From positions 1,860,001 to 1,924,000 of the forward strand of contig NW_026570225.1 of NCBI RefSeq assembly GCF_019649055.1: 64,000 nt of DNA. Reading direction: 5' to 3'. A model generated the notes under the pieces. That model was not told the origin of the DNA, made no database searches, and saw only the letters and a list, made by a program, of their open reading frames with translations. This document shows, piece by piece, positions 2,914 through 25,497 of this stretch. The position numbers and the translations under genes were made by a program. The stretch comes from Paramacrobiotus metropolitanus. Its lineage: Eukaryota; Tardigrada; Eutardigrada; Parachela; Macrobiotidae. Positions within the stretch are counted from its first letter, which is position 1; the number at the start of each line of letters is the position of its first letter.

Positions 2914-3769
2914 TGCCTCTGGGCGGGAGTCCGAGCCCCTGCGAAGGACCGGCCTCATACCGCTCCAGTGCCCGCTCCGCACACGACCCTATTGGGGTCG
3001 GTGGCTGCGCCTCGGAGGTATCCGATGATGTGGGTGTCTCGTGCCGCGTTCTCCTCCGGACCCGTGGTGGCGATACAACTCACGGCCGAAATCCGAAGGT
3101 CGGTCGGTGGTATTGTTGGACCGGTGTAGGCATCTGTTGGTCGTGTCCGTAACGGCGAAAAAGTAAAAAAAATAAAGTATTATTCCATTCGTCTCTCTCT
3201 CTCTAGTAAAAATAACATCACAATTCCTGGTGAGCAGGTTACAAAAAAAAGATCAATAAAATGAGAACATCATTTCGAGATTAGAAAAAGTAAACTCAAA
3301 GTCTTTGGTCCGGGGCTTTGGGCCGGGTGCTTATTCCGACTAGAGCTCGTCCGCTTCACGGGGGCTCCAGTCCACTGGAAGTCCGGTCATCTAGGTCCGA
3401 GGCATCGGTTCTCGGGATACCCAATGGTACCGGTTCAATTCACCGAGGGTCGAAGGTTCGACCCTATTGACTTCGGGTAAGAGTATGGATCTCCGTTGTC
3501 GGGTGCGAAACGGGCGTGAAACACACTTTCCGACCGGGATCCTCCGGTAAAAGCTTGATTAGAACCTTCATAGCCGGGTAAGGTTGCTCGTCCTCACATC
3601 CAGCCGAGGTTCATCGGGTGAGGTTGATGGAGAGGCACTGTCGCATTCGCAAATACCGTAAGGTACCCTCTCTGAGTGCAAGATAAGACCTATTGGGTCT
3701 ATTGATCGGTGGATCCTCCGGGGAAGCCCGGTGATCCGAGGTTGGATCCGGGCAAAACCGTAATGTTGT

Positions 3770-3797
3770 GTCCTGTCGCCTATTGGGCAACAAGGAC
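3770..3797 (-). repeat. Extended hairpin of the CAATA-loop family
   Basis: Outer stem GTCCT/AGGAC, inner stem GTCGCC/GGCAAC with one C-A opposition (G-U in sense RNA), loop TATTG, one bulged A. The hairpin at 4294-4319 has the same layout with a different outer stem (GTAG/CTAC), so the outer pairing is maintained by compensating changes. Confidence 0.8.
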
Positions 3798-3836
3798 CGG
3801 TTGATGCCTGGTCTCCATAAGGTTTAATGGTTGATG

Positions 3837-3875
3837 GACGTGGTTTACACTGCACCGTGCAGTGTAAACCACGTC
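3837..3875. repeat. 39-bp perfect palindrome
   Basis: 19-base arms beginning GACGTGGTTTACACTGCAC are mirrored exactly around a single central C. It sits in the 3' non-coding region of element A, among the small hairpins but without their TATTG loop. In RNA it would give a stem of about 18 pairs. Confidence 0.9.
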
Positions 3876-6628
3876 TGGTCCAAATGATGTTATGGCCTCT
3901 GTGCGGGAGTCCGACCCTTCAAGGTTTTGAAGTCCGATGGTAGCCTCGGTAACCGAGGGTCAGCTCCGGTTGCAAAATCAGAGTCCAAGCTCAGCCTCGG
4001 TTGCTGAGTCTAAGTCCATTGGCAGCCTCGGTACTCGAGTTAGAGTCCGGGGTGTACCCTCGGCTGCGCTGGTAGATCGTGGTTACGCGATGTGCTGAGT
4101 ATTCTGTCCGGTCAAAATCCCCAAATCTGTCTCCTGTCACCTATTGGGTGACTTAGAGGGGGTGGGTTCCGGACTTTGAAGGTTGAAGTCCGAGGGCGGG
4201 TAGCCTCGGTATCCAAGGATCAATCTAGCCTCGGTTGGTTAACGAATGACAGTCTGATGGTCGCTTCATCCCGGCAAAACCCTTATTGACGGTGTAGGTC
4301 GCCTATTGGGCAACTCTACCGAGGGTCTCACCGGTAAGATGAAGTCGCTACCCGGGGCAGCCTCCGTGTCCGGGGTAGCCTCGGTGGTGAGGTAGTCAGC
4401 ATCTGGTAAGGCTGGTCCTAAGGCGTTCTGCCCGGGCAAAAACCCTTTTTAACGTCTCCCGTCACCTATTGGGTAACATGGAGAGGGTTAATGCCTCTGG
4501 ACAGGGTCCCAGCAGGTATCCGAGGGTCAGTTAGCCTCGGTATCCGGGGGTCCAAACCTCGGTAACCAGACTGGCCCAACATGCTCTGGTGGGAATCCGC
4601 TTGATGCTGGGGATGTCCACCGGGTTACTAGGAAAGATCATGCAAAAGAGGCTCCCCGACAGCTATTTAAGACCTAATTGGGTCTAAGCTGCGAGGTGGA
4701 CACTCTAAGTTTTAAAGACGGAATCCATGCTGGTCCGTTCCTTGGCTGATCCCGTGCTTCCACTTAGGCGAAAACACCCGGGATGCCGGAATAATGCCTT
4801 GGCTAAAGGCCTATTGGGCCTATTGGCGTAGTTATGGGCATCCGTAGCCTCCGTTGGGGGTTCAGTCATGTCGGACGCGGAGGAATGCTTATATACCGGT
4901 GTTGTATATACGCATTCACCCGTGTACCCTAATGTCCTGGTACATCCTTCCGGTGACCACGGTCCGATTTGCGGTGAAATGGTCGTGCCGGTCACTCCCA
5001 CGTTCTACCAGCTCCATAGTTGATAGAAAGTGTGAGTGTGCCCTAATATCCCACTTCGTCCGTTCCGGGGTGGAATGGAGGCCTATTGGGCCCCGATGGG
5101 CATCCTTGGAAAGGTAGAGATCGTGGTTATACGCGATCTGCGAAGGCTTGCATCCTCCGAGGGTCCTTCTGCCGGAGGGACAGGCCGGTGGAGCGAAGCG
5201 GATCGCGCCGCGCAGCACCGTCCCGTCGCTTTTCGTACGACGGATTCCGCCGGAGTTATGCTGCCGAGGCCTATTGGGCTCTCGTGCTGACTTCAAGTGG
5301 AGGTCAGTCAACCAGCTATTACTCCGATTCCCGGGGTGTCCATGAGTCGTTGGCAAACACGGTGCTGAAAAGGGCAGTCGCTTTTTCGGCACCATGTTAG
5401 CGGAATCCTCTTGGGTTAAGTTCCGGAAATTAGTCATATGGGTTCGCTGACCGAGGAGGTATCGCGTCCTGGGTCAAGGTAATCCATACTCAGTTGAGAG
5501 GTTGAGTCGTGCGGATCGGGTTGTCAGGAGGTATCGCTTCCTGTACCACACGGTCCGCATTCGGTTGAAGGATGAGAGCCTATTGGGCTCAGAAGGTCGG
5601 AGTTATGGAACTGTAGTTCCACCGGGGTCCTTCTGCCGGCTGGGTGCGAGCAGGAATACCCGGCAGATCATGCTGGGAACTCCTGGTCAACCTCCTTACG
5701 TGCGAAGGGTCCAATGACGAGGCTGTTACCTGGGCTTCATCGGTATAGGGTTTGTTACTTCCTATGCCAACAAGGTCCGGGCTGGTAGGATCCGAGAGTA
5801 AGAGCCTATTGGGCTCTATGGTCCGAGTTACGGAACGGATCAGCCGGGATTCCTCTGTCGGAGGGACATGAGCAAGGAGAACTGCACATTTGCGCAGTTG
5901 TGCTTGCCCAAGTCGCTATTCGTACGATTCAGAGATGAATTGTGTAGTCACAGTTCACCGCTAGCCAGCCGCTATTTGTGCAAGTTATCCCGGTGAACTG
6001 GGGTTTCCTTTAGGTTCGACCCTTCTAGTCCGAGGGTCGAAGGGTTGGAGGGTTGGACGTCGGGGTATCCCTATTGGGGTCTACTCCCTAAGTCAATGGT
6101 GGGTCGGGCCTCTACCACGGCCTATGATGTTCCCTTTTAGCTCCGGGGATAGCAGGTCGGCGGAGTCGCTGATTCAGCCGAAGCCAGCTAACCGTCGGGG
6201 GTCGGCTAACCCTTTAGTTCGGTTGCATCCCCTCGCTACTTGGCTCGGTTCGCCTCCTGTCATTGTCACCGGAGACCGGAACATTCTGTCCGGTTCATCC
6301 AGGGGAAGCCAGGGGAGACGTCCGGTACGGTCCAAGTTGAACTCGTATTTATCGGGTCTGTCCAAGGGATCCATCCAGGTTCGATTCCAAGGTCTTCTAC
6401 CGGAGTGGATTATCCGTGCAGAACAGCGGGTCGCGCTGTACTGTGCGGACAAACCGCCTTTCGTGCGAAGGTCCGGACTAACGTGGTTTAGGAGGCTTCT
6501 CTTCCAGAACTACGGTAGTCCGAGGGTTGCCGGTTCGGTTGTCCTCTACTGACGACGAGGTCTAAGTTCTGCCTTAGTCGTCCGTGGGGGATCAGGCTCC
6601 GCTAACTTTCTGGCGGCCTATTGGGCAC

Positions 6629-6660
6629 CTTCCCTGGAACCTATTGGGTTCACGGGGAAG
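6629..6660 (-). repeat. Extended hairpin of the CAATA-loop family, two-stem form
   Basis: CTTCCC pairs with GGGAAG outside GAACC/GGTTC, separated by a small internal loop (TG opposite ACG). A second copy at 6821-6852 keeps the same inner stem and internal-loop position but has outer stem TTGCCT/AGGTAG. Confidence 0.8.
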
Positions 6661-6993
6661 TTATCGAGGGTTCGTGTGCCATATTCGACTTCGCTTCAAA
6701 CCGTCCATTTCCGGAGGGTGAGGTCCATATCTTGGTGGTCCTGGCCAGAGCGGTCAGGTTCCAAGTCGGCCAAACCTGCTCTGGCCAGGGCCTAAAGGTT
6801 CATCAGGCCTAGCTGGGCACTTGCCTCAGAACCTATTGGGTTCACAAGGTAGTTGTTGAGCCTTTCATGGGGTGAAGTCCAGTCAGGTCCACTTCTTTGG
6901 ACTCTGTCTTTCGATCCGAGGTATTTCCGTTCCCGCGATGTAGGTACCGTTACTTCCCGCGTCGGAGGGACGGAACTTAGAATTTTTTCCACA

Positions 6994-7019
6994 GGTGGAG
7001 GCCTATTGGGCCTCATACC
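6994..7019 (-). repeat. Extended hairpin of the CAATA-loop family
   Basis: GAGGCC/GGCCTC perfect six-pair stem with TATTG loop, then GGT/ACC outside a small internal loop. Confidence 0.8.
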
Positions 7020-7572
7020 CCGGAGCCCTTAGGGTCCGGTGAGGTATCGAGCGATCCGCTCGGATCGAAAGACAGGTTACTTAGTCGTATCAGCATCGTG
7101 CTTAGGTGCGGTCTGCAGGTTGCCCTCTTCGCTGAGATCACCACGGACAGCCGTACTTGTGGCTGACTCTGTAGCTTCTTGATGGTAGCAGAATGGTCGT
7201 GGTTAAGGCTGCGATCTGCAGGATAATGAGGGTTTGCTCGGCGAAAGTTATGTTCCGGGCCGTTTGGGCGTAGTAAAGGGTCAAGTCTACCACCCTGTCC
7301 CTTATTGAGGGTCCGGTTTGGTAGCTGATCGTGGTTAATGCGATCTGCACTGCTCTGGGACCGTTTCCCTTATTGAGCATGCGGCCTGGTAGCAGATGTA
7401 ATTATCGGGCGCGGTCTGCGGGCTTTACCTCCGTATCCCTTATTGAGGGTCCGGTTAGGTAGCCGATCGTGGTTAATAGGCCCGGTCTGCGTTGGTAGCT
7501 TGTCGTGGTTCGAACTGCAAGATGGTCGGCCAGCGATCTGCGGCTCCTCGGTTGGGTTCCATCGGGGGTATT

Positions 7573-7589
7573 CGTCTCTATTGGAGACG
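7573..7589 (-). repeat. Hairpin with altered loop-closing pairs
   Basis: CGTCTC-TATTG-GAGACG. Here the usual CC/GG next to the loop is TC/GA, yet pairing is intact. With CCCT/AGGG at 7299 and 7437 and AGCTC/GAGCT at 23848, this shows that even the stem base next to the loop can covary while the loop stays constant. Confidence 0.8.
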
Positions 7590-7657
7590 TCGTCATGTCC
7601 ATGTGACCGGTTTTACGGTTAGCCTAACCCTATTGGGGTCCAGCCACCGGTCTCTCT

Positions 7658-9638
7658 TTATTCTAAGTCCACGTTGACCGGGGCTCCACCACCAAAGTGG
7701 GAGCCTTCCGAGTCATCGTCCTTATCCCGTTCCCGTCGTCCTGGGTGGTTCGAGGATGTGGCCTCCTGGGTACAGGTAGACTGCGTCTCCGAGGCTTCCT
7801 GTCCGGGCTTCTCATCTTTGGTTCGGCGGGTCTCGCGTCTTCGGCGGTTCCTGCCTGAGGATGACGAACCAGGCCACATGTTATACCTGTAGGATGACTT
7901 GCCTTCGGGCATCGGTGGTGATGTGAACCCGGGTGGCAAGTGGCGATGGGTCCGGCACCATTCCGAGAGGGTCGAGGCCTCGTCGACATCCTTTTCGTCG
8001 TCCGGATGGTACTGGTACTCCTTATGCCATCGCTCTGCTGTCAGCAGGAAGTCACGCAGCCATAGTCCCACCACTGTATCTCTCATTGGCGTACTCAGCT
8101 GGGCCACCGCCGTCCGAAGTCGGGGCGGGATTTTGTTATTCCGGTACGCGCAGTACAGGGTGTAGTGGCTGTGATGATGGCCAAGTCGAGCCGCGAAAAT
8201 CAGTCGCAAAGCCGTCTGGAAAGCCATTGGAGCATCTCCTCGGGCTTCAGGTTCAATGTTGCCAAGGTATTCAGGCAAACCCTGGGCAGCTCTGGCTGCA
8301 GTCATCACCATGGCTGCTTGTGCCTCGGTGAGTACGAACTGCGCCACCCATTCCGTATGGTCCGTGACCTCTCGTTCCGAGGCATATAACGGAAGCTGAC
8401 TCAGCTGAGACCAGTCAAGGTGGTCGAGTGGCAGTCCCAAAATTGCTGGGTCGGTTGCGCTAGGCAAGCCGTTCGTCCGGTAGTACGGGAATCCGATGCC
8501 ATAGGCCAACCGATCGTTCATCTCGAAGTCCGATGTTCGAACATCTGTTGGTATCCGGAGTGGTCGAGGAAGATTCGAAGGTCGTTGACCAGGTGCCAGA
8601 CTTGGTTTCGTCGGTCTTCCCGGTACTGCATGGTTCCCATAATGCATGGTTCAGCTTATGTCGTAAGTCCCTTCCCAGCCTATGACGCAAGTCGCCAGGT
8701 GTCAGTTCCGACACGCTCTGAGTTCTGCGGTTAGACGGAGTGGACCCTGTTGGGGTCACTGCTGCCGTCGCTGGTGGTTCTGCCGATCGAACCACTGGTT
8801 GGGCCGGGAATTGCGAGGGTAAGCTGCCCATTTGCTGGGGTAAGCCACCTTCTTGTGGGGCTACCAGCTGCTGTTCCACTTGGCTCCGCTGAATTGCCGG
8901 TTGAGCCTCTATCTGGTGGGGGTTAAGGATTTGGGCCATGTATTGTCGGCCGTCGGGTCCGGTGAGTGCTACCGTCATTCCAGTAAGTGGTGTGGGACCA
9001 GCCAGGAATGGACTCGTAATGCTGGGTATATTTGCGGTCCCATCCGGGTTCAGCACTTCCGCAAAGGCATTGAGGGGTGCCGGGGGCTCGTCCGGGAACC
9101 CATTGGGTTCCACCGTGAGTCGAGCCTGTGAGCAGCCGGCTACGCCCAAGGGTGGGGGTTTATCCTCCTTCTGGCGTGTCCGTTTATCGTGCTCACGCTG
9201 GGCCTTAGCGATCCGTCGGTCAGCTGCCGCTACTTCTCGGCGGTCATCTTCGCGCTCCTGCTCCCGTCGTTGTTCACGGGCATGAACCAGTCGGGCGTTA
9301 TCCGGGACTGCTGGGGTATTATCCCAACCAGGCTCGTGGGTACGTCTGCGATAGCGTTGCAGGTCCTACATATGGAGCAGCTCTCGGCCTTCCAACTGGT
9401 CGAAGACTCTGCTGTTGTGGATTAAGTAGGTGTACGCACTCAGATTCCCGATAACGACTTGGAGATACAGGGCATTAGCCTGGTCCCGTCGTGTGACTCG
9501 GTCCTCCCCGGCCTGTCTGTCTATATGTCGTAGCAGGCAGTCCGCGCAGGGTTGGCGTGTCCGGGGTGAGTTATTGTTGACTCGGCACGTCTGGCAACCC
9601 GAGTCGTAGGGTTCCGTCCGGGGTTGAGGAGGCTGTGC
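7658..9638 (-). pseudogene. ORF2 of element A, C-terminal part (two frames, one in-frame stop)
   Basis: From 9638 downward one frame runs AQPPQPRTEPYDSG, a Cys module (CQTC...CADC), a helical stretch, an in-frame TAG at 9366-9368, a strongly charged helix (REQRREQEREDDRREV..ADRRIAKAQREHDKRTRQKEDK) and a P/Q-rich segment to about 8620. Sense then continues one base out of frame in the 329-residue stretch ending at 7658. That stretch has helical segments around DWSQLSQLPLYASEREVTDHT, an RLGHHHSHYTLYCAYRNNKIP segment, and a basic-then-acidic tail (RNRRRRETRRTKDEK...RRERDKDDDSEG). I recognise no family. Being last before the long 3' tail, it may be the C-terminus of ORF2 or a separate protein after the gap at 9642-9896. 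Confidence 0.55.
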
Positions 9639-9896
9639 TCAGAGACACGTAACTTAATATTGTTAAGTTATTTTTGTTTTTAAACCTTGTGGATCATTAC
9701 GTAAACCTATTGGGTTAAACGTTCTAAGGTTAGATGTAAGCTTAAACGGTCGGGTACGGTCAGGTCTTGTCCGATCCTTTTCCTTCTCGCCTATTGGGCA
9801 AGAGAAACATCCCCGTTACGGAGGTTATAGGGTCTCGGCTATTGAGCAAGGAACCTCCGGTGATGTACTTCCGTTTAGCTCTTCTTCTTCGGCAGG
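9639..9896 (-). other. AT-rich gap within the downstream coding region of element A
   Basis: No open frame. It holds hairpins at 9704-9716 and 9785-9803 and an AT-rich patch (TTAATATTGTTAAGTTA). It separates the winged-helix-like part of ORF2 from the terminal part, so it could be an intergenic spacer, an intron or an insertion. I cannot tell which. Confidence 0.4.
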
Positions 9897-11090
9897 TCAG
9901 CCGGGTTGGTCGACTTGGCCCGTGCTAACCGCTTCTGGGCCTCCGTTTCGGCCAATGTGGGAGCCTTCGCCGGGCTTGCCCGCGTCTTTGGCAGGTGCTG
10001 TCCAAAGTCCAGGTAGATAGAAGACGGAGAAACGCTGCCCGTGGGTCTTGTAAACCTCACTCGATCCAAGAACTTTCTGTCGGCAGGCTTGCTCCAGGAC
10101 GTACTCCAGCTCATCGGCCAGATGGTACAAGTTGCTTTCCTTTCGTCGGACCGGTCGGTACCGTGCGTCTTCCAGTTGAGGGTAAGCGGACATCAGGATG
10201 AACTCGAACCGACCTATTAGGTGGCTCGCAATCTCCCGGCGAGTTAATCCTTCCGGGTGTCGATCCGTCCGCAGGCAGGCGATCACTGCGTCCCGCCATC
10301 CGAGATAAGTCTTCGGTGCTGGGTCTTGTTCTTCCCTCGGAAAGACGTAGTATGCCCGTTCGGTCTTGGTGTTTACCCGTAGGATGGCACCGGTCTCGTA
10401 TGCCATCCGACAGTAGATCTTCACCCTGTCCAGGCTGAGGTCGAACCAGCTTCCGTCCTTGTCGACTCGCCAATGCTTCAGCAGCTGGTAAGCCAACTCC
10501 GGGGTTGCGTAGGTTGGGCCCGACCAGGACAGCGACTTGAGTGCAGCGTGTACGTGCACCCATCCAGGGTCGGTATCGGAGATCTGAGGCTTCGGTCTTG
10601 ATGCCCGCATGGTTGCCGGTTGTTTCGGCCGGGGAAGCCGGATAACAGGCTTCGGTGGGATCTCCCGAGGCAAGACTTGTGCTGTATCCTCGTGCCACTT
10701 CATAAGTAGCTGGTCGGCCGGAGGGCTCGGGGTCCTTTGGTCAAAAAGGCCCGAGGCTTGTTGTTGAGAGGGGACTTTCGATCCCGGTCCCTCCATGGGA
10801 TCGTCCGGGTCATCTGCCGGAGGCTGTTCCTGATTGTCAGGCTCATCGTCCGGTTCGGGATGTTCGGGTGCCGCTGTTGGCGGCTTCCCTTTTTCATCTT
10901 CATTGTCATCATCATCGCCATCCGAGTCATCGGATTTGTCAGAATCTTGATCTGACTTGGCGTCTTTATCATCATCATCTTCTGAAGAGGGTTCTTCCTC
11001 TTCGAGGGACTGAGCATTCCGCGAAGTCCTACCCTTGTTCGTGCGCTTCTTAGTCTTAGGCGTAGACTGGCCCCTTGTTGAGGTTCCAGC
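9897..11090 (-). pseudogene. ORF2 of element A, acidic tract and possible winged-helix pair
   Basis: The frame continues that of 11091-11741 after an in-frame TAG at 11091-11093. It begins with a basic segment (TPKTKKRTNKGRTSRN) and an acidic tract (EEEEPSSEDDDDKDAKSDQDSD...GDDDNEDEK), then a P-rich linker. The last 230 residues contain two similar helical units, each ending in a hairpin-like strand pair: GAILRVNTKTERAYYVFP and VYKTHGQRFSVFYLP. This resembles two winged-helix folds, but that is inference from pattern only. Element B also has an acidic tract at the matching place (63.84-63.95 kb). Stop at 9897. Confidence 0.55.
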
Positions 11091-11741: not shown

Positions 11742-11747
11742 TCGGTC

Positions 11748-14378: not shown

Positions 14379-14423
14379 GGGCTCACCGAGCGGCGTGGCT
14401 GGTTCTGCAGGCGTCTTATCCTG

Positions 14424-14657: not shown

Positions 14658-15335
14658 CTCATGACTGGCATCCTCGGCTCGCTGAAGTGCTCGTCGAATG
14701 GTTTCGTAACCGTTGAGGGTGGCTTGATGGTCGGTCTCCGGGTCGATTGGGCCGATGTACCCTGCTCTGGGGGTTCAATCTGCCTGATCCGAGACTGATC
14801 CCTGGAGGCTCGATCTGCCTCTCGCCGTTCTTTAGCCTGTTTTTCTTCCTCATAATCCCGGATAAAGCCTGAGAGCCAAAGCACGCAAGGTTGCAGCTGA
14901 GCCTGGCTATACTGATGCTTCGGAGTCTCCGGGTGTAGGAGTATTCGGGTTGCCCGGGTATGATTCTCAACCCCGGTGATGTCACCATCCAACTTAAAGA
15001 ATTCCGCGCTGTGACGGTCGCAAAAGTCTCGGCGAGTCCGCATCTCAGTCAAGATATTGTTTGCCCGAGTCATAGCTTCGACTATATAGGGTTGAGCGTC
15101 GGGCGGCAGGACTCCCGGGTCCGATATGTTTTCCATCGTCCGCACTATCGAGCGTGGTGAGAGACGCTGGGACGGTGCAACCTGTTGGGTCGCTACCGGC
15201 CGTTCCGGTTGCTGCGGTGGATTCGCAGAGGTTTGGGTCGGTGGGTTGGCCGGAGGCTGAGTCGCCTGGTTTGCCGAGGCTTGGGTCGGCTGAGTGGCCG
15301 GAGGCTGAGGTGGAACCGTTTTGCGGCTCTCATTC
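14633..15335 (-). pseudogene. ORF2 of element A, P/Q-rich linker and helical unit matching element B
   Basis: From about 15335 the frame gives a P/Q/T-rich linker (PPQPPATQPTQASANQATQPP) with short DNA repeats, then a helical unit DAQPYIVEAMTRANNILTEMRTRRDFCDRHSAEFFKLDGDI. That unit aligns with HLVNLVNQTMELITEMRARRIFCDSNSRLAQDLDRNI in element B (about 62240-62345). It continues WLSGFIRDYEEEKQAKERREADRASR, matching B's WLETRVRDYIEERDRDQERKETDRRS. This fixes the deletion junction: upstream at 15336 the pol linker stops at MYLG. Confidence 0.65.
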
Positions 15336-17168
15336 TCATGCTTCCTCCGAGCCGAGGTACATTAGGTACTTGTTCTTAGCGGGGTCAACTTCTATGTCGA
15401 GGGTGACCGTAATTTCGACGATAGCCCTGGGAAGTAGCTGGACCTTCTGTTGGGTCCGTACCGTAGTAGCGTCATATTGTGTCGCCCTCGGTAAGCTGAA
15501 TGGTCGGTCCCCGTGCTGTGAGACTCGGGCTACTCCCATCGGGATTTCCCATTCGATCTCGTCATTGTCGGGTTCGAACTCGTAGGTGTCGCTGTAGTGC
15601 ATATATCCGATCTTCGCACCCTTTCGGAGTACCTGGTTGTACTCGGTCGCGTTCTGGACCTTGATCCATGCGGTGTCGCAAGTTGGTCGGATCTCAATCG
15701 TGTCTTCAATCGGCCGAATTCCGGAGTGCTTTCGCCGGAAGGATTCGAAATGGATGTCCCTATGAGGGGCCATGCTCTTAAGAGTTCGCACCAGTACGGC
15801 ACAGGTTGAGAAGGGTGGTAAGGTGCACTTGTTTTCGACAAATACAGGTTGTCGGTCTTCGTCCTTATCCTCGGTATGGAGCTGAAGACGATTGACGGTT
15901 GGGCCTGTTGCTATTGGCTTCGGCCTCCGTACCCGTTTCCATGGGTTATACACGGTGCTCTCGGGCTTAGTCTGTCGAACCGAGGCTGTCTTTGATTTAG
16001 CCGAGGCTCCGTCAGGACTTGTATTTTTATCGGGCTCAACGGGGTTACCTCCGACGAATGTCGCCTGTTGGGCAATCTGTTCGTCGTCGGTCTGAGATAC
16101 CCGTTGTCCCGCCACACGGACGTCGTACGTGGGGCTTCCTTCCGAGGATTCAGCTTCGGAGGTGTTAGGGTCCCGTCCTAGGCCCGTATCGCTAGAAGTA
16201 GCCGAGGTTGATAGGCTGTCAGCCGGGTGAGAAACCGTAGTTGCGGTTAACTCAGCCCGTCGTTGGCCCGAGCCTCCATTCTGGGGTTGCTGAGCTTCCT
16301 TTGCGGATTCGTTACCGGGCGATCCACCTTTTGGGGGTTCGTCCGGAGGTGTATCAATTCCCATCCATCGAACCGAAGGGTCGAAGCCGATGTCATTATC
16401 ATCGTCGTCATCGGAAGTATCCGATGAGTTGCCTTCTGAAGGGTTGGATGGCTCGTTATCGGAGTCAGTGTCCGGTGAGTCGCTTGTGCTCTGGACATCC
16501 GAGGCTTCCGAGTCCCAATCTCCGAATTCGTTGGCTTCGCCTTCCTCCGCTGTTCCAGCGGATGGTCCAAGTAGACCGTCAGTAACCCTAATTGGGGTCT
16601 GCTGAGTCGGTCCTTCCCACCTTCCCGGTTCGGGAGGTCCGGGGGATGGTGGCTTACCATGCTCCCAGACTTCTTCGTTCCGAGTTCTGAGGGCTTGGAC
16701 AATCGCTCCATTGTTGTCGTGGCAGATCGGGCATTCCAAGGCCATATACTGTTGATCCGGGGCATGTTCCCGTATGTTAGCTAGGCGGCCCCCTTCTTGT
16801 GGGTGCACAGCCCCTGCTAACCTTACTTTCTTGGCCTGATGCCAGTTGCGAGGCTCGATCGGAGGTTCGGAGTCCAGCACGACCCTAGTTATACGGGTGT
16901 CTTCGCCGTATCGACTCCAAAAGGAGGCAGTATCCAGGGTACCGAAGTGGTAGGGATCTCGGAAGTGCCACATAAGGCGTCGGCCCAATTCATGGGACTG
17001 GATTTGTAGTATTGCCGGTATGGGGAGCTGGTGTTCCACGAATTGTGCGTGGAGTACGATCCGCTCTTCTTCCCACTCCGTAATTAAATCTTCTAAGGCT
17101 TCAGTCAGGTCGATTACCTCTTGGCATTTTCTCCCTTGCGGCTCGGATCTGGTCGTCCGTCCTTGCAC
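15336..17168 (-). pseudogene. Element A protease-RT linker region, truncated before RT
   Basis: 610 residues. The N-terminal 130 match 51936-52400 of element B (SFWSRYGEDT; CPICHDNN, a CxxC module). A central acidic S/D/E-rich region follows. The last 170 residues match the start of B's pol frame: LPPFSTCAVLVRTLKSMAP, FRRKHSGIRPIE, IEIRP-CDTAWIKVQN, LRKGAKIGYMHYSD, LLPRAI. This pattern of a beta-rich module before RT is typical of Gypsy pol. The frame ends right after KYLMYLGSEEA, where B goes on to RT. It overlaps the protease frame by 68 bp and is one base ahead, the shift lying near GGGAGAAAATGCC. Confidence 0.7.
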
Positions 17169-18162
17169 CGACTCGTTCGAGTGCGATTCTTATGCCAACC
17201 GTTCGGGTTTCGAGGAGGTGTCGAATGCCGGAAAACCAAGTTCGGTACCTTTGGTTGAGTATACCAGAGGCCGATGCCTCTGGTATCGGGATAGACTTTA
17301 GTATCCCTCGGACTGGTTCCAATCGGGTCGTCCGTACTTTCGCCAAATATTGTTCGATGGCGTTGTGGATTTGCAGCTCCGTTACGAGGCTTCGTTCGGT
17401 GTCCGAGCATTGTGGGCAGATCGGAAGTCCGGGGTTTATCGGTTGCGCAAGCCGATTTATCCGAGCCTCATTCGCTGCCGTGCCCGATGCCTCTGGTATC
17501 AGGATAGGCTGCACTGCACCCGAGGATGGGTTCCGCTGACCCTCATTGGGGGTCATTGACGCCCGGGGGAAGACTAACTTGGAGTGCAGATAGTCGCATC
17601 CAAGAAGTACGGGGACGTCCGAGTTATTGGCTTGGACGTGGAAGGTGTGGGGGCTGGTGAATCCTTGCAAGGTTACCGGTACGGTACAGCAATGGGTTAC
17701 CATGAAGGCGACTTGTCCGCCGACACCAAGTATTTTGGTGAAATAGCCCAGAGATTCGAGCTTAAGGTTGTTGGTCCGGCAGAAACGCTCCTCTATTAGG
17801 GATGTTTCGGCTCCGGTGTCCAACATGGCCATGGTTGTCACTGGTCCAATCTGAACTTCATGTGTCCATGCCCGGACTACCTTCGGTCGTCCGGTGGTCT
17901 GTAACGGTTCAAGCGTTACTTCCCTAATGGTCACTTCGACCGGGATTAAGGGTGTCGTTGATCCGCCGGGGACACTATTGGTGTCTGCAGACGGCGGTGG
18001 TGAGATTCTGTCCGACCTTGGTGGATCTACTCCGCCTTGTGGGTAGCCATCCGAGGGTCGTTGTGGACTTAGTCGTTTTGCCGGGGCTGATGAGCCTGGT
18101 AGCCCGGATGGAACTTCCTTAACCGAGTGATCCGCCTCCGGTCGGTTAGCTACTCCGTCCAT
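17101..18162 (-). CDS. Element A aspartic protease region
   Basis: 353 residues with the retropepsin active-site motif AMLDTGAETSLIEERF (Asp at about residue 115) and the later VPVLLGCDYLHSK strand. After the fold come a CPQC-DT module with the helix LVTELQIHNAIEQYL and two copies of an IPEAS peptide motif (DNA at 17484-17508 and 17271-17295). The motif could mark processing sites; this is inference. This is the only intact DTG in the window. The frame follows the 18162-18683 segment, one base out of frame, and runs into the linker frame by a one-base shift. Confidence 0.75.
   Translation of the reverse strand: MDGVANRPEADHSVKEVPSGLPGSSAPAKRLSPQRPSDGYPQGGVDPPRSDRISPPPSADTNSVPGGSTTPLIPVEVTIREVTLEPLQTTGRPKVVRAWTHEVQIGPVTTMAMLDTGAETSLIEERFCRTNNLKLESLGYFTKILGVGGQVAFMVTHCCTVPVTLQGFTSPHTFHVQANNSDVPVLLGCDYLHSKLVFPRASMTPNEGQRNPSSGAVQPILIPEASGTAANEARINRLAQPINPGLPICPQCSDTERSLVTELQIHNAIEQYLAKVRTTRLEPVRGILKSIPIPEASASGILNQRYRTWFSGIRHLLETRTVGIRIALERVGARTDDQIRAAREKMPRGNRPD
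17271..17508 (-). repeat. Paired 25-nt box in element A (IPIPEAS-coding)
   Basis: In sense the box is TCTATCCCGATACCAGAGGC followed by ATCGG. Copies are at 17271-17295 and 17484-17508 (two differences), 213 nt apart. The first is 25/25 identical to a copy in element B. It can fold (CCGAT/ATCGG around ACCAGAGGC). On the plus strand the first copy forms a longer palindrome with 11-base arms at about 17260-17285. Confidence 0.85.
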
Positions 18163-18683
18163 TAGCGATTCGGCGGTTTCACCGGGTATGTCCGGCTTGC
18201 TATCCGTTCTTCCATGGACGGTTGACCTTCTCGCAGGGTTGAGAGGTTATATTGCATGTTGAAGAACGTGCGCGATCCGATTACAGTTCGTGCCGGCTGT
18301 CGCTGGAAGAGGTCCGCTTCCTGCTGCAGACAGTAGGCTGGCACCTGTGCCTCCAAAGGTACTGCTTCCCAGTCTTCGAAGTACTCCGTTACTTCGTCGG
18401 TCGGAGCCTCCGGCCGTCTACCTGGTTGGCCTACCAAGGACGGTTCAGGCGTCATTCTGGCGTCCTGTGAGATTGCGGGTCGGCGTCCCGATTCTCCGCT
18501 TAGCCCGTGGCTCGTAATGCCTAATTGGGCACTGAGCCGTCCGGGCAGCCTGGTGACGTTTCTCGTCCCGGCTGGTCGGGTCCGGTTTCTCCGACCGACA
18601 TCCCCGGCTTTGCCTTCTGGGCCTGGGGGTCCGGGCACATTCTGTGTCCCGGCTGCCGATCGGATCCAAGTTCCTTGGCCCAT
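18162..18683 (-). pseudogene. Element A segment between Gag and protease
   Basis: 173 residues. The N-terminal half has a collagen-like GPPGPEGKAGDVG run. The rest is acidic then basic (EVTEYFEDWEAVPLEAQVPAYCLQQEADLFQRQ). No family recognised. It lies between the Gag C-terminus and protease and may be the N-terminal part of the protease protein, joined by a one-base shift near 18170. Confidence 0.45.
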
Positions 18684-18689
18684 CCTCCC

Positions 18690-20045
18690 AGGTACCTGTT
18701 CTGGTCCGGGAGCCGCATTACCGGCGTGGCGAGGTTCGATTCTCCGAGTATCCGAACCGGGGATGTTCGGCGCCTAGTTGGGCTACCGTCCCCGCCGCTA
18801 AGATTCTAGCGGCCTCGCTGACCGTTGCGGAGGCTAAATCCTTTGAGGTTCCGAGTTGTGTCCAAAGGGTTAATCCGGTTAGTGGGGTTATCCTTATCCG
18901 GTGGTTCCGTTGGATGACAGAGGTCGAATGAGTCACCGGAGCTCAGTGACCGGAGCTCAGTCGAATGAGTCACCGGCAGTTGCGGCCGTTGAACTGGTGG
19001 CGGGGTTGCCAACGGGGGTCGACCGCCGTTCTGACGGTTCCCTCCATTTCCCTGGCTAGGCTGCTGGTTAGGGCTGCCGTGACCGCCGAATCCGCCGGCA
19101 TTCTGCTGACGGGGTCGCGGGGGTGGTACGATGGCCCAATAGTTCGGATTCGCCGAGCCTAATGGCCATCCGTTATCGTACCGGTACCTCCAATCCAGGT
19201 ACCATCTCCGGTTTGGATTGTCTTCCAGCCGGAGGTTGGCATAGCCACAACCTCGCTTGGTTGTGGTTGCCCCACAGGCAGTGACCGCAGGAAAACGTTC
19301 CGTTCTGGGTCCACTGGAAGAACTTAGCTTCCACCCGGTCGACGTAGGTCACCTGTTGGCGAGCTTCCTGCTGTGGTGTCCGAGGCTGCCGTTGCACATT
19401 CTGGGCCTGGCCGCCTCCACCCGCGCGGTTGCCAAAGTTTCCGCCGCGATTCTTGCCGCCACGTCTTCCACCGGAGCCACCATATTGCGAGGCTCCGCCG
19501 CTTCCATATCCGCCTCCGGAGCCATACCCCTGGTTCTGAGGTTGGCCGTAGCCGGAATTCTGGCCGTAGCCCTGTTGGGGCTGGCCATAGCCGGGGCTTC
19601 GAGGCTGGCCGTAGCCCTGTTGGGCCTGGCCATAGCCGGAGTAACCCTGGCCCCGTGATTGGCCGTAGCCGCGGCTCCGAGGCTGACTCGGTTGGCCGCT
19701 ATTTCCATAAGCAGGCGGCGTGATCATGGTCCCTGTTGGGGCCCCATTCAGGTTCAACGCCGCCATTGCCGCCCAAGTCTGTTCGATTTGACCACGGGCT
19801 TGAGGAGGTGGTGTCGCCGGAGGGCTCTGTCGGTGAAGCCCCGGTTGCACGTTCTGGTAACCTGGCGAGTTGGGTTGGATGTATCCGGGAGCCGGCTGAG
19901 GCACAGGAACGGGGGTCGCCGTCCTGACGGTGATGTAGTTGGTGGTATTACCACCTTTAACTACCTGGTACATCGGCTTTCCCCGGGTGAAGTCCCGTAC
20001 ATAGTCCCGGAACTCACGCGTCGTCTTCGGCATTCGAACGTCCAA
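18690..20045 (-). pseudogene. Element A Gag, C-terminal half: YGQ low-complexity domain and zinc-knuckle remnant
   Basis: Continues the capsid frame after a one-base step near 20050. Residues about 105-215 are a FUS-like low-complexity domain of repeated GYGQ/QQGYGQ followed by G/R-rich sequence (GGRRGGKNRGGNFGNRAGGGG). Then come AKFFQWTQNGTFSCGHCLWGNHNQAR and, one base out of frame, GCGYANLRLEDNPNRRWYLDWRYRYDNGWP and a G/N/P-rich tail to about 18690. CxxC-x4-H followed by Cys resembles a nucleocapsid CCHC knuckle. Role: RNA binding in Gag. The first frame stops at 19173. Confidence 0.65.
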
Positions 20046-21583
20046 AGCTGCCGAAGGATTGGCTCCGTGACGTTCGTCCGCAGGTAGAAGACAGCTAGTT
20101 CTTCGGTGAGATTGCCTCGTTGTTTGAGGTTCATGATGGCGTCGTAGTACTGCTCGGGGGTCTCTTGCCCTAGCATGTACCTCCTAGTAGTGATATCCGC
20201 GACGGCCGTGACCTGTCTGTCAGGGTCCATGAACCGAGCCGCAAATTGCTGCAGCCAGTAGTCGACGGTCCATCCATTTTCCTCAGGTTCCAGAGCTGAC
20301 TGGTTCTGGTACCATTCCAGGGCTTGTCCAGTAAGGGCGCCCTCCAGCTCCGTCATAAAGGCGACGTTCGTCATTGCGACGTCGTCAGCCTCCGAGCGAT
20401 AGATTCGCCGGATCTTTGTGATCCAGCCTTCCACCTTAGCCCCGTCGCCATTAAACTTCGGCAACTCCGCTCGGTTTTTCCGAGCCAGGATCCGGTTATT
20501 CCGTTCCTCGTAACGGCGCTGGCCTTCTTCATAGCCTTCAAGTCGGGCTTGAGCGATATCCTGCTCATCGGGTGGTGGGGTTTGTCGGGGTTGGGCTACC
20601 GGCATTGCCTGTTGGGCTACCGGATGGTTCCAACCTATTGGGTAGGCCGCTTGCTGGTTCTGCGCAGCCGGGGCGGGTTGAGGTGGGTACGGCTGTGGTT
20701 GAGGATACGGGTTGCCAGGGGGTGCCGGCTGTTGCGGCTGTCCCGGTCCGGGCGGAGGATTCTGCGCTCCGTACCCCTGGTTCGGCGGTTGGTTTGGTGC
20801 TACATACCCGGGTATCCTCTGGAGGACTCGGTTCTGATCGAGCCACATCCCTGGTGGTATAATCACATATAGGTCAGCCTGGGGCAACGGAACTCTCGGG
20901 TCCATGTTGCCTTGCTGAGGCTGATAGGGGACATTACCAACAGCGCCTGGGCCAACCAGACCTATTGGGTCACGGTTATCTAGCCGAGGCTGCTGTGGTG
21001 CGTTATCCGGATAGCCGGGGCGTACCGGGTCAGCCCAATTGCGCTGCCCTGCCGATACGGGTTGTACTTCGATCCTCGGCGGGTACGTGTTCTGGGAGCC
21101 CGAGCGTTGTCGGTCCCGGTTGGAATTCCCGGAATTGGGTTGAGAACTTCCCACCGAAGCGTTCGTCGGCGGTCTAAGTCCCATGCTAGATCCGGTTACC
21201 GGGGCTCGGAGGTTCGAGCCTCGGGGCTGATCTTGTCCGGTTGAAGTCGATGCTACAGGCCTAGTTCCGGTTGAGAACATCGTCGTTATGGATGTTCCTC
21301 CGTAGGCCGTAGTAGTTGTGGTGGTTGAATGGGTCGGTGCATTGGGGGTAGCCGTCGAAGTATTTCGCTCCGGCTCCGGGGCTGACGGTACCATCGGCGG
21401 CCTCAGTATGGGTCCCACCGACGGTTCAGCCCGAAGCATTCCGACCTGATAAATTTGTCCCTCGAGAGCCCCCGTTTGACCTGTTGGGTTCAGCAGGGGG
21501 TTGTCTCGGCGCAGGTAGTCATCAATCTGCTGACATTTATCCTGCTCTTGGGTGGTCCGGTAGGATGGAGGTTGCTCCGTCAT
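19961..21583 (-). CDS. gag: Element A Gag, N-terminal and capsid region
   Basis: 540 residues. The N-terminal 350 are P/Q/T/N-rich. The C-terminal part is a Ty3/Gypsy capsid: ELPKFNGDGAKVEGWITKIRRIYRSE, then LTGQALEWYQNQ, WLQQFAARFMDPDRQVTAVADITTRRYMLGQETPEQYYDAIM and EPILRQL. It is directly homologous to 50151-51480 of element B. The start ATG overlaps the stop of the upstream coiled-coil frame as TAAATG (21581-21586), consistent with termination-reinitiation coupling. After about residue 515 the true sequence continues one base out of frame in the next segment. Confidence 0.8.
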   Translation of the reverse strand: MTEQPPSYRTTQEQDKCQQIDDYLRRDNPLLNPTGQTGALEGQIYQVGMLRAEPSVGPILRPPMVPSAPEPERNTSTATPNAPTHSTTTTTTAYGGTSITTMFSTGTRPVASTSTGQDQPRGSNLRAPVTGSSMGLRPPTNASVGSSQPNSGNSNRDRQRSGSQNTYPPRIEVQPVSAGQRNWADPVRPGYPDNAPQQPRLDNRDPIGLVGPGAVGNVPYQPQQGNMDPRVPLPQADLYVIIPPGMWLDQNRVLQRIPGYVAPNQPPNQGYGAQNPPPGPGQPQQPAPPGNPYPQPQPYPPQPAPAAQNQQAAYPIGWNHPVAQQAMPVAQPRQTPPPDEQDIAQARLEGYEEGQRRYEERNNRILARKNRAELPKFNGDGAKVEGWITKIRRIYRSEADDVAMTNVAFMTELEGALTGQALEWYQNQSALEPEENGWTVDYWLQQFAARFMDPDRQVTAVADITTRRYMLGQETPEQYYDAIMNLKQRGNLTEELAVFYLRTNVTEPILRQLWTFECRRRRVSSGTMYGTSPGESRCTR

Positions 21584-22090
21584 TTAGTCCTCGAGGTAGG
21601 TCTTTTCCTCCTTCAGGCACGCGACCTCGATGCCCAGGTTTTCTCGTTCCTGGACCAGCTGATTGTGCTTTTCGCAAAGGTCGTTGTATCTGTTGGATAC
21701 ATCCGTGCCGAAGTCGTAAAGTTCTTGTTGGTACTTTAGGAGACGATCCTTGTCGATCTCCAGCTGGGTCTTCTCGGACTCTAGCTGTATGATCCGGGCC
21801 CGTAGAGCCTCGATGACTGCGAGGTTCTCGATGCGAGCCTGTTCAAACCAGGCTGTTTCGTTCTGGAGATGGGTGGTGAGGGCATGAATCTGCTGGCCAA
21901 GTTGAGCCTGGCATAGCCGAAGGTCTACGGCTACACCCTCCGGGTCGTTCTGATTCTGCCGGAAGTTCTCATAGGCTGTCCGGAGGAAGTCGAGTTCCGA
22001 GGTGAGTTCGTCGATCTCTCCCTCCAGGCCGATAATGCCCTGTTTGAGGTGGTGGTTCTCCTCTCGATACTCATCCACCCGGCCGAACAT
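21584..22090 (-). pseudogene. Element A ORF0, coiled-coil C-terminal part
   Basis: 168 residues, almost all heptad-patterned coiled coil (HHLKQGIIGLEGEIDELTSELDFLRTAY; ALRARIIQLESEKTQLEIDKDRLLKYQQEL; QLVQERENLGIEVACLKEEK). It is in the same frame as the upstream segment across one TAG at 22106-22108. It ends TAA immediately before Gag's ATG and in the same frame as Gag, so readthrough would fuse it to Gag. Confidence 0.65.
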
Positions 22091-22105
22091 GTTGTGAAGC
22101 TCGGC

Positions 22106-23296
22106 CTAGCCAGCCTCGGAGTAGCCGAGGGCCTGTAACCACTGCTCCAAGTCCTCGCGCAGGGTGGCCACCTCGGCCCGAGAGTGCTCCAGCATGTCCT
22201 GGAGTCTGGTGACTTCGGTCTGGTCATAACGGCAGGGCTCCTCAGTTACTTGTAACTGGGCCTCTAACCGTTCGATCTCCTGGGTAAGGTCGTCGATGAC
22301 GGTGTTCGCACGTTCGAATTCAGCTGTGAGCCTCTTGCGCTCCTGCTTATGCGAAGCAACCGTCTGGGACAAAACATTCTCCGTCGATTCGACGATGTTT
22401 TGCCCGGCCAAGAGCTGATTTTGCAGCTCGTAAATCCGTTGGCGGAGGACCTGTGGGTTGTCGATCTTCTCCGGAGGGGTCTTGGTCAGGTACCGCCGAG
22501 GCGTGAAGTCCGAGGCTCCAGTGTGTGAGCCTGGGTACTGCTTCGGAGACGGAAACCTGAAGCCCTTCCTACTGTCTGGACGCTCGGTCACCTTATTGGG
22601 TAACACGGTTGCGTCGAAGACATCGTCGGTCGGTGATGGGGTTTTGTCTGCCCCGAGGTCCGAGGGTTCGAACATCGGTGGTGTGGCCGGAAGGTCCGTG
22701 GTTGGCTTTCCAACCTTCGGTGAAGCCGATTTCGACTTACGGGTAGCCTGTGAGGCTTCAATCCGGCTGGCTCGGGTCAGCATGGGTTCACTGCCGGGGG
22801 TTATGGGTTTTGGGGATGACGGTCCGCCAGCCGAGGTTAAGTTAACCTCGGTAACCGAACCCTCAACCTCGTCCGCGGAGGCTATGTCCGTTGCAACCGA
22901 CGGAATCCGGAATTTTACCGGAGAAACGGCTTTCTTAGCCGAGGAAGTGGGGGTTGCCGGCCGGGTTTTGGGTGTTCCAACCTGCTGGGTCGGTGTTCGA
23001 GCCCCGGTGTTGGGGGTCCGAGCCTCAGTGTCTGAGGCTCTGGCCGACTGCAACCTTCCCGTTGGTGATTTTGATGTTCCCGAGGTCGGCTTCGGTAAGT
23101 TCGACGTCCGAGTTGGAGTCCCGGTGAGGGTCCTCGGGTCCGGTGTGGTCGCCTTCGGAGTCCCGGAGGGTCGTTTCGGGTCCGGCCACGTCGATTTCCG
23201 ACCGTTGTCCGAGGATTTAGGGTTGTTGCCCGTTGGTTTGGGGCTCTGAGCCAGGGTCAGTGGGGACTTAATCGGTGAACCCGCCTTGTGGGTCAA
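22106..23296 (-). pseudogene. Element A ORF0, S/T-P-K-rich and coiled-coil part
   Basis: 396 residues. The first 270 are rich in TPK/SPK-type motifs, like histone H1 tails or proline-directed kinase targets (PSGTPKATTPDPRTLTGTPTRT). The last 110 form a coiled coil (VLRQRIYELQNQLLAGQNIV...LTAEFERANTVIDDLTQEIERLEAQLQ). An extra ORF upstream of gag is a known feature of Ogre elements; no homology to theirs can be claimed. Element B shows no clear counterpart upstream of its Gag. Confidence 0.6.
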
Positions 23297-23825
23297 ACCC
23301 CCGGGTCGGTGATACCGTACCCTTCGTTTGGCTCATCTGGCCTTGCTTCTGTTTCGATCCAGCCATGCCGCCCTGTTGGGGCTGCACAGGGTCACCCATG
23401 TCCGGTGACACCTCGGAGCTACTTAGCGCCGGGCTCGAGGCTCCATTGTTCGGGGTGATGGCCGGGAAAAAGACTGGCGAGGCACCTATTGGGTGCACAA
23501 GTCCAGCCGCAGGCTCGGAGTTCGCAGTTTGACCTATTGGGTCATGCTGAACCTCCGACTCAGCCTGTGGTAGCTCGAGGAACGTCCGGTCGTGTGCGTC
23601 CTCGAAGCTATCCTCCGGCGATTGGGTGAAGTCGTTCGCCAGGATCCGCGCATCTCGCTTCTCCTTGGCCGATTTGGTCGACTGGTTCGGTTTGCCGGAC
23701 TTGCTCGATCAGTTGGAGTCCGACGAGTGAGGCTCATTGCCCGGGCCGGCATGACGGAAGGTGTATCCGCCTGCGTTGTCCCTTCGGGCGTAGCCTTGAT
23801 CGAACTTCCGTTCGTATGGGTTTGA
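23268..23825 (-). pseudogene. Element A ORF0, N-terminal part
   Basis: From about 23708 to 23268 a frame gives KSAKEKRDARILANDFTQSP, EDAHDRTFLELPQAESEVQ, then a P/S-rich tail that joins the 23296 frame by a one-base step. Upstream of 23709 a different frame (PARAMSLTRRTPTDRASPAN) may carry the true start. Hairpins of the CAATA-loop family lie inside the coding sequence at 23482 and 23530, where they encode P-I-G. Confidence 0.45.
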
Positions 23826-25069
23826 TCGATCGGACATCTTCGGTGGTAGCTCTATTGGAGCTGTGAAGTAGCCTCCGGGTTGTCCCTTCGGCCAAGAAGT
23901 CAGACTATCCCTATTGGTGACTTGCCCGAGGCTGATGAGGCTTTATGCCTATTGAAGGTCCGAGGGTCCCGTGGGGGCTAAGGTCCGGTGGGGGGCTGAG
24001 GTCCGGTGGGGTGAGGGGTGTTGGTGTGGGTGTGCTTGTGCTACTTGCAACTCAGTACTGTTGTCAATACAGGGTACAGCTTACGTACGTCCTATACTAC
24101 AGCACTGACCGCTATGACGTCACACACCGCTAAGTGGTCTTGCAAATTGCTGCCTACGTCACGATTCTGCGTGCCGCGCGCAAAATTCCAAAAAACTATG
24201 ACTCACTTATAGCATAGGGAATCTCCCCGCTATCCTGATTGGTCGGATTTTATAATGTAAAATCGGCCGTCGTGACGTCACAATTATTTAAATTTTCGGA
24301 TTAATTAATTTCCGAGATGGAAAAATTCGGAAAAATCGTAGAAAATTCAGAAAAATTAATTTTACCGACCAAAAATTATTTTAGCCAAAGGAAAGTTACT
24401 CCCTTAATTTTTCGTAAGTTAGGATAGGTTGAAAACCGAGGCTCGGAGGGTCTACACCGAGGCTCCGACGGTCCGGCCTAGTAAGGCTGGCTAACCCTAT
24501 TTTTACCCGTAAAAAGATGTTTTAAGCCCGTTTTATCCGGGTGAAAATAAGTTCTAGCCGGCCAAATTACTTTTGGTCAGGTAAAAATGAAAAATGCCCG
24601 GCTATATCGGGTCTTATGAGGCTCTACACGGTTTACCAAGGGTCAGTCGACCCTTTTTACCGGGTTAATCCGTGCGATTCCGCTTGTTGGTCCGGTGAAT
24701 CCCGCGCTGTTATAGTTGCGGGTGCCACTTAAGGCAAAGGCGACCCCGATTGATGAGGCTGCGAGGGTCCGCTGGGTCCGTGCCGTCCGTTCTGTCCGGG
24801 GATCCGCGGGAACCGCTAATCGACCCGGGCAAAGTCCGTCCGAAGGTCGTTTCCGCGAGGAACGTTCCGTCCACGCGCAAGGAGAGGGTCTGCCGAGGCT
24901 TTCTGCCCGCAAGAGAGAGAGAAGAGACCAGACCGTTCTGGCTGGCGGCGATCAGATGGGGATAGGAACCTTCGGTTCTCCCCTGTCTTCACGTCGGCCG
25001 TTTACGGATGTAGGTCTACACCGTGGTCTCAAAGGGTCCGTTGAAGGAAAACTCAACGATATGCTATCA
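23826..25069 (-). other. 5' leader of element A
   Basis: Non-coding stretch between the 5' LTR and ORF0. It is GC-rich except for an AT-rich island at about 24050-24420. It contains an AGCTC/GAGCT hairpin with TATTG loop at 23848-23862 and two perfect CRE palindromes. A packaging signal would be expected here but none can be assigned. Confidence 0.6.
24115..24280. promoter_or_regulatory. Two CRE (TGACGTCA) sites in AT-rich island of the leader
   Basis: TGACGTCA at 24115-24122 and 24273-24280, with a half-site-like TACGTCAC near 24155 and TTTATAATG near 24250. CREB/ATF factors bind TGACGTCA in animals. The island differs in composition from its surroundings and could be an enhancer, an internal promoter or a small insertion. 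Confidence 0.4.
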
Positions 25070-25493: not shown

Positions 25494-25497
25494 CTAC
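25494..25497. repeat. Target-site duplication of element A, right copy (CTAC)
   Basis: Second copy of CTAC, directly after the outer LTR end. The sequence that follows continues the interrupted right arm of FB1. Confidence 0.9.

Follow-up and report, generated by a model that had tools for sequence, protein, structure and literature searches.

The window analysed here, the whole 64-kb stretch of Paramacrobiotus metropolitanus DNA at C5:1860001-1924000 (assembly of 169.8 Mb in 533 contigs), contains at 2488-25493 a Ty3-type long terminal repeat (LTR) retrotransposon of about 23 kb, with its sense on the minus strand. The subject of this work is a set of short hairpins with a CAATA loop, which are found dispersed along the internal sense RNA of this element. 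The two LTRs have the TG...CA ends and the short target duplication of an LTR element, and CTAC flanks both of them on the outside. The parts of the element that are needed below are as follows.

2488-2913, minus strand, 3′ LTR, 98.4% identity to 25070-25493 over 426 columns
2914-7660, minus strand, 3′ region, about 4.7 kb beyond the last long sense frame, with no long frames of known kind and taken as non-coding
15339-17189, minus strand, pre-RT frame (RT, reverse transcriptase), its C-terminal part resembling the pre-RT part of the pol of a neighbouring element, with no RT behind it in the window copy
17101-18246, minus strand, aspartyl protease frame (PF13975, E 3.9e-8)
19964-21583, minus strand, Gag-like frame, assigned by position and by eye, without a Pfam match
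25070-25493, minus strand, 5′ LTR, paired with 2488-2913; the outer CTAC at 25494-25497 equals that at 2484-2487

The internal sense RNA was taken as window 2914-25069, with the extreme ends excluded, and a stem was defined as an uninterrupted run of four or more Watson-Crick or G-U pairs. The sequence CCTATTGGG is present in 24 plus-strand copies at 2988-23541 and is absent from the minus strand throughout the 64 kb of the window. The word CAATA occurs 52 times in the internal sense RNA, versus 4 times on the opposite strand. A stem closes 26 of these 52 words, and CAATA is the apical loop in the minimum free energy (MFE) fold of a 45-nt window at 29 of the 52 sites; the figure of about 30 hairpins given in an earlier note on this DNA is thus right. 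It should be noted that the 45-nt MFE alone is uninformative, as in this G+C-rich element many good sites fall outside the set of windows with the lowest energy. When CAAYA and CAATTA loops are taken together, the window copy has 39 hairpins that reach 4 bp or more, and chance is the likely origin of a few.

The array is densest in the 3′ region, where 18 CAAYA/CAAYTA hairpins with stems of at least 4 bp are found in 4745 nt and where the sequence seems free of protein constraint. The hairpins of the 3′ region are listed here.

2985-2999, minus strand, CAATA hairpin, 6-bp stem CGACCC/GGGTCG
3686-3700, minus strand, CAATA hairpin
3776-3790, minus strand, CAATA hairpin, outer stem GTCCT/AGGAC, bulged
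4137-4151, minus strand, CAATA hairpin, two-part stem of 11 pairs, with compensatory changes across copies
4299-4313, minus strand, CAATA hairpin, outer stem GTAG/CTAC
4462-4476, minus strand, CAATA hairpin
4670-4685, minus strand, CAATTA-loop hairpin, GACC/GGTC in the window copy
4807-4821, minus strand, CAATA hairpin
5079-5093, minus strand, CAATA hairpin; in the C35 copy about nine bases between GGCC repeats seem to be missing (by eye)
5267-5281, minus strand, CAATA hairpin, bulged
5576-5590, minus strand, CAATA hairpin, flanks diverging and core retained
5802-5816, minus strand, CAATA hairpin
6067-6081, minus strand, CAATA hairpin, imperfect in the window, TGTCCC/GGGACA in copy L043
6637-6651, minus strand, CAATA hairpin, outer stem CTTCCC/GGGAAG
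6829-6843, minus strand, CAATA hairpin with an outer stem, missing from C46, C138_48 and C73 (by eye)
6999-7013, minus strand, CAATA hairpin
7298-7312, minus strand, CAATA hairpin, stem CCCT/AGGG
7436-7450, minus strand, CAATA hairpin, stem CCCT/AGGG
7574-7588, minus strand, CAATA hairpin, CGTCTC/GAGACG, in L043 CGGCCC/GGGCCG
7626-7640, minus strand, CAATA hairpin

In the coding half the sites are sparser and a greater share of them have variant loops. The hairpins listed for the rest of the element are these.

9653-9667, minus strand, CAATA hairpin, 8 bp, loop-adjacent TTAA/TTAA in the window copy
9703-9717, minus strand, CAATA hairpin in the window copy
9787-9801, minus strand, CAATA hairpin in the window copy
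15178-15192, minus strand, CAACA-loop hairpin, GCGACC/GGTTGC, with no counterpart found in 19 loci
16061-16075, minus strand, CAACA-loop hairpin within a coding frame; 18 of 19 copies retain the stem
16584-16599, minus strand, CAATTA-loop hairpin within a coding frame; 18 of 18 copies read at this site retain the stem, four of them with a CAACTA loop
17971-17985, minus strand, CAATA hairpin near the protease frame in the window copy
20958-20972, minus strand, CAATA hairpin in the Gag-like frame, encoding P-I-G, with one other copy aligned
23482-23496, minus strand, CAATA hairpin in the first long frame, encoding P-I-G
23530-23544, minus strand, CAATA hairpin in the first long frame, with two-sided changes at two stem pairs
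23848-23862, minus strand, CAATA hairpin upstream of the first long frame, with a covarying stem

Pairs 1-5 form the unit that the sites have in common, and pairing falls off at pair 6. The two loop-adjacent pairs are usually C-G and the rest of the 5-bp stem is free in sequence. At many 3′ sites the stem continues, after a bulge or small internal loop, into a second helix, as is seen in the MFE folds and in the alignment of site 4142 described below. The outer stems that had been reported at 3770, 4294, 6629 and 6821 are present in the sequence (by eye), and hairpins that encode P-I-G within coding frames are seen in the Gag-like and first long frames, as had also been reported. Some points need qualification. 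Besides CAATA, CAACA and CAATTA loops also belong to the set, mostly in the coding half; and sites such as 3465, 14229, 20636, 22594 and 23950 have poor hairpins or none in the window copy. A scan of window 1-26000 with the covariance models of 4227 Rfam families gave no matches up to E 1.

The loop word can be recovered without reference to the claim. In a screen of all 3-8-nt words for at least 4 flanking pairs, CAATA comes first (26 of 52 at a base rate of 0.017, p 2e-32), followed by its 7-nt form CCAATAG, then by CCAACAG/CAACA (CAACA 9 of 47, p 8e-8) and CAATTA (4 of 5, p 3e-7). Thirty dinucleotide shuffles gave a best loop-word p of 2e-6, versus the observed 2e-32. When 3′ arms were re-dealt among the 52 sites, the observed pairing at each of pairs 1-5 was reached in 0 of 2000 trials, and the same procedure on the 24 CCCAATAGG sites gave 0 of 2000 at each of pairs 3-5. 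Shuffled controls had been named in the earlier note as a test on which the array could fall; neither the shuffles nor the re-dealt arms matched the observed pairing.

Other copies of the element were sampled as 31 genomic stretches (148,940 bases), obtained from 193 matching pieces. In these stretches CAATA lies in a hairpin loop in 330 of 523 occurrences, versus 41 of 1921 for other letter orders; the corresponding counts are 27 of 234 versus 33 of 1424 for CAACA, and 17 of 28 versus 23 of 1356 for CAATTA. At 20 window sites the loop is CAATA or CAACA in 386 of 418 aligned rows. The most tolerated loop change is U to C at the fourth position (21 of 438 rows), which agrees with the CAACA loop class. 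Conservation was tested with ungapped arms only, at the 17 sites of the 3′ region with stems of at least 4 bp, against random windows that were not chosen for stems. The 15-nt cores differ from the window at 0.039 per site, versus 0.128 for random windows (standard deviation 0.020, lowest value 0.067 in 2000 draws). Differences are 0.030 in the loop, 0.02-0.10 at pairs 1-5 and 0.127 outside the sites, with the step at pair 6. The conserved unit is a 15-nt sequence that consists of 5 bp and a pentaloop. Stem cells are broken in 43 of 1719 cases in the hairpins, versus 1703 of 15091 where stems arise by chance in that region.

Stems also change on both sides. In the covariation null, the 5′ column of a hairpin was re-partnered with the 3′ column of another hairpin at equal pair type, with the tree preserved. 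Two-sided changes at the 3′ sites number 10, versus a null mean of 0.4 and a maximum of 4 in 1000 trials; at three 5′ sites there are 16, versus a mean of 0.3 and a maximum of 1. Sliding the partners left 2-10 two-sided cells versus 31 observed over 25 sites, in a test that retained 2-28 rows per site once those of odd length or lacking flank anchors had been omitted. Three alignments were compared with shuffles. Alignment A1 (site 23535, 21 rows) has 9 two-sided cells versus 2.6. Alignment A2 (site 4142, 28 rows) has 6 versus 2.0, with 5 pairs that show two-sided changes versus 1.8. Alignment A3 has 46 two-sided cells versus 14.5 and 91.4% of its cells paired versus 64.3%; A3 consists of 28 sites chosen by hand from the 52, and the unbiased test is the re-dealing of 3′ arms over all 52. 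Individual sites illustrate these changes. At site 23535 the codon before P-I-G reads Asp in 11 of 21 rows and Gly in 10 of 21 (window frame, by eye), and every one of the 18 distinct rows has G-C, A-U or G-U as the pair at that codon. In the diverged copy L043 the stems at 4142, 5084, 6072 and 7579 are altered, yet largely pair. In the coding part, CAATTA words act as hairpin loops in 33 of 37 cases over 19 loci; this retention, together with that of the stems at 16066 and 16589, is weak evidence because the copies are about 90% alike. The tree-preserving test, the conservation confined to the core and the tool counts together support the loop-constant, stem-covarying array that had been proposed from one copy, and show that the hairpins are selected as RNA structure.

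A second giant Ty3-type element is found at the other end of the window.

49401-64000, plus strand, related giant Ty3-type element with RT and integrase (INT), extending about 700 bases beyond the window into L049; pol frame at 53008-56592

RT, RNase H and INT are arranged in Ty3 order in this element. It is 73-91% identical to copies of the CAATA family in pieces confined to RT and RNase H, and no CAATA array is found in it. The loop screen applied to it places CACAGAA first (5 of 7, p 2e-8), a result equalled by 0 of 60 shuffles. CACAGAA, CACACAA and CACGGAA jointly are closed by stems of at least 4 bp in 11 of 17 cases within 49401-64700, versus 12 of 813 for other letter orders, and no such hairpins are found in control stretches; the loop class CACRSAA was broadened from CACAGAA by eye. 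A coding repeat contains sites 57485 and 57584, whose stems still reach 4 bp or more in 3 of the 4 copies read, with the loop alternating between CACAGAA and CACGGAA, and the stem is retained in 5 of 5 relatives at 63771 and in 3 of 5 at 63573. In L101 a G-C to A-U change is seemingly compensated, with 3 pairs left. As a lead, the related element may carry an analogous set of hairpins with a CACRSAA loop. A side observation on this element is that positions 57340-57720 are 100% identical over 381 bases to a sequence about 87 kb upstream (G000:C5:1830742-1831122), which is a very recent copy or a duplication.

The role of the hairpins is proposed from the pattern of sites. They may be sites, dispersed along the RNA, at which a single protein (most likely the Gag of the element) recognizes the RNA for packaging or assembly, and this proposal is given about an even chance. 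The sense RNA of this giant Ty3-type family presents dispersed short hairpins with a free 5-bp stem and a CAAYA loop, or more rarely a CAAUUA or CAACUA loop, and the 5-bp hairpin often stands on a second helix below a bulge. A single protein would read the constant loop on the 5-bp helix; the Gag of the element itself is the most likely candidate. Many weak sites on a very long genomic RNA could then lead to selective, cooperative packaging or to particle assembly. Gag is favored because the sites start ahead of the first long frame and continue to the 3′ end of the genomic RNA, because the motif is clustered and because the RNA is so long. The other loop in the related element, if right, favors a reader that is encoded by the element.

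Several results weigh against this proposal. In the re-partner test at the 3′ sites the broken fraction is the same as in the null, 0.0232 versus 0.0237. Pairs with two-sided change are not above shuffles in A1 (170 of 500 as high) or in A3 (84 of 500 as high), and neither are pair types (500 of 500 and 151 of 500, respectively), so that in these two alignments only the cells and the score exceeded shuffles. In the related element several sites are broken in relatives, and site 63709 has a stem of 4 bp in 0 of 5 of them, even at 91% identity. A nucleocapsid zinc knuckle is not recognisable with Pfam in the window copy. In addition, the packaging sequences of Ty1, Ty3 and HIV-1 are placed in the 5′ end in the available part of PMC11381356, whereas the array here is densest toward the 3′ end, which would fit stability, export or translation equally well.

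Because of this 3′ bias, such roles remain serious rivals. A host RNA-binding protein or an accessory protein of the element may bind the hairpins, which would then serve RNA stability (by keeping a transcript that has a long 3′ part from nonsense-mediated decay), nuclear export or translation, and not packaging; this is quite possible, if somewhat less than probable. The concentration of sites in the 3′ region is in its favor, as are several further frames of unknown function that come after the pol region. One of these, the accessory frame at 9900-11090, gave no homologues at E 0.001 or better among 3347 word-sharing candidates. However, hairpins are also found within the first long, Gag-like and pre-RT frames, and a different loop may be in use in the related element. 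Nor is the motif scattered across the host genome: 80 of the first 100 motif places listed fall in five dense clusters (by eye), and a host-wide motif is disfavored on this account.

A signal at the DNA level, such as a CCAAT-box-like site, a cruciform or a hairpin in single-stranded complementary DNA, is improbable. An inverted repeat is symmetric in DNA, and CCCAATAGG contains CCAAT, the motif of the CCAAT box. Against it is the single orientation of the 24 copies. The pairing itself also bears on this choice. Within pairs 1-5, 175 stem cells are sense G-U versus 29 that are sense A-C, although by position the two are tolerated with little difference (32 stem positions with any G-U versus 22 with any A-C); the bias toward pairing in the sense RNA that had been noted among imperfect positions is therefore clear in cells and weak by position. 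Read in sense, stems of at least 4 bp close 26 of 52 words at a base rate of 0.017, versus 23 of 52 at a base rate of 0.030 when the other strand is read. The G-U tolerance, the single orientation and the stronger excess over the base rate when the sense strand is read favor the coding-sense RNA, and a CCAAT box or other DNA signal is disfavored by the one-sidedness and by the G-U tolerance in cells.

It is very unlikely that the hairpins are non-functional mobile insertions or products of template switching at a CAATA word, which the earlier note had named only as alternatives. Near-tandem sites (4812/4821 and 3691/3700) would fit such an origin, as would the parts of the 3′ region that are diverged duplicates; 4102-4163/4426-4488 and 6615-6668/6806-6860 are 76-78% identical and hold hairpins. 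However, the 31 stretches hold 330 CAATA hairpins in total, of which 288 coincide with window CAATA sites and 6 with other window places; unaligned gaps account for 33 and sequence beyond the aligned part for 3. Of the 33 in gaps, only the one in L045 (29 bases opposite 0 in the window) has the size of a hairpin, and since its stem equals that of the neighboring 7579 hairpin, a duplicated piece is equally likely. Hairpins are present at orthologous sites even in copies that reach about 73-76% identity over their longest matched pieces. The sharply bounded conservation speaks against mobile hairpins, as do the compensatory changes at orthologous sites, which template switching does not explain. 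Three of the gap cases are clean 184-base segments that hold a CAATA hairpin in C389, C68_237 and C71 (L012/L028, L025/L030/L037 and L031, respectively) and are absent from the window, and further units are carried by other copies. Hairpins are also lost, as where a 50-base gap removes hairpin 4304 in one copy.

Finally, chance stems in a G+C-rich repeat combined with conservation of P-I-G or P-T-G in the protein have next to no probability: coding hairpins do encode P-I-G, but the best part of the array lies outside long frames, where P-I-G conservation as sole cause is rejected, and the permutation, shuffle, letter-order and re-partner controls are all contrary to an origin by chance or composition.

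The pol region and the surroundings of the element should also be described. The C-terminal part of the pre-RT frame is 39% identical to the related element at 48-65 kb (E 1.6e-44), and no RT follows the pre-RT domain (15336) in the window copy. When 19 other loci of the family were compared, the RT domain of the neighbor (residues 451-601) was matched by 17, one partially; L067 matches RNase H and INT only, and L069 stops before RT. A family that lacks RT is rejected, since 17 of the 19 other loci show this domain. The INT part is matched by 2 of the 19 loci, on the opposite strand in L061, with the loci extending just 1.5 kb beyond the match. A frame at 19176-20183 overlaps the Gag-like frame; it is G/Y/Q/RGG-rich, has no Pfam match and is a possible RNA-binding tail. 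The element lies inside a MITE-like (miniature inverted-repeat transposable element) inverted repeat, in which 2125-2487 recurs inverted just upstream and a short stretch is at 25493-25571 on the far side. Short arrays of a AACCTAAGAA-like unit are found at 1159-1233, 26619-26723, 32314-32411, 34962-35053 and 42689-42783.

Hairpin arrays that are read by one protein include the XIST A-repeat and the stem loops of the alfalfa mosaic virus 3′ untranslated region, which differ from the present array in that they are other molecules with other loops. Two features of a packaging array, namely multiple dispersed stem loops with a shared loop and selection on pairing, are found here. In the packaging signals of MS2 and other RNA viruses there are likewise many stem loops on one genomic RNA, with a shared motif in variable surroundings, according to the accessible text of PMC6281560. 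The MS2 loop motif given there is (x)xYA with a 5′ bulged A; CAAYA, like it, ends in AYA, a likeness that may be due to chance. The MS2 reader is the coat protein, whereas the reader proposed here is a candidate, the loop is a pentaloop on 5 bp, and the array is 3′-dense and belongs to an LTR retrotransposon. The packaging elements of Ty1 and Ty3 are of the same element class, and a constant-loop, variable-stem array is not seen in the accessible portions of PMC11381356 and PMC4974528; in the latter, multiple scattered RNA sites are considered likely contributors. Sireviruses also have many palindromic repeats in an LTR element. As far as the accessible text of PMC2829016 goes, a CGG-CCG core characterizes these repeats in every element but one; they are located in the LTRs, on the upstream side of the promoter, and two elements have them next to ENV as well. 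They are compared there to transcriptional activators, with no variable covarying stem described in that text. A Sirevirus-type CGG-CCG motif in the LTR was considered and rejected for the present element, in which variable stems and a constant A/U-rich loop are found in the internal region. Burro and Ogre are likewise Ty3/Gypsy elements of more than 20 kb with extra frames; no hairpin array is seen in the accessible part of PMC6431247, in the text of which the word tardigrade has 0 occurrences. In the open-access literature, to which the search was confined (subscription papers being outside its scope), no description of a constant-loop hairpin array in LTR elements was found.

It can be speculated, tentatively and as a rather unlikely extension of the Gag proposal, that the two loops form a lineage-specific hairpin code, in which the CAAYA and CACRSAA lineages are each read by their own Gag, which would thereby tell self RNA from that of co-resident relatives. 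The means by which LTR retrotransposons select their own RNA are poorly defined even in Ty1 and Ty3, according to the accessible portions of PMC11381356 and PMC4974528. In this animal Ty3-type family, dozens of covarying 15-nt hairpins give a recognition rule, 5 bp and CAAYA, from the sequence alone, and a rule derived in this way makes binding readily testable. If the related element truly uses another loop, the two families would provide a natural specificity swap for a protein-RNA pair.

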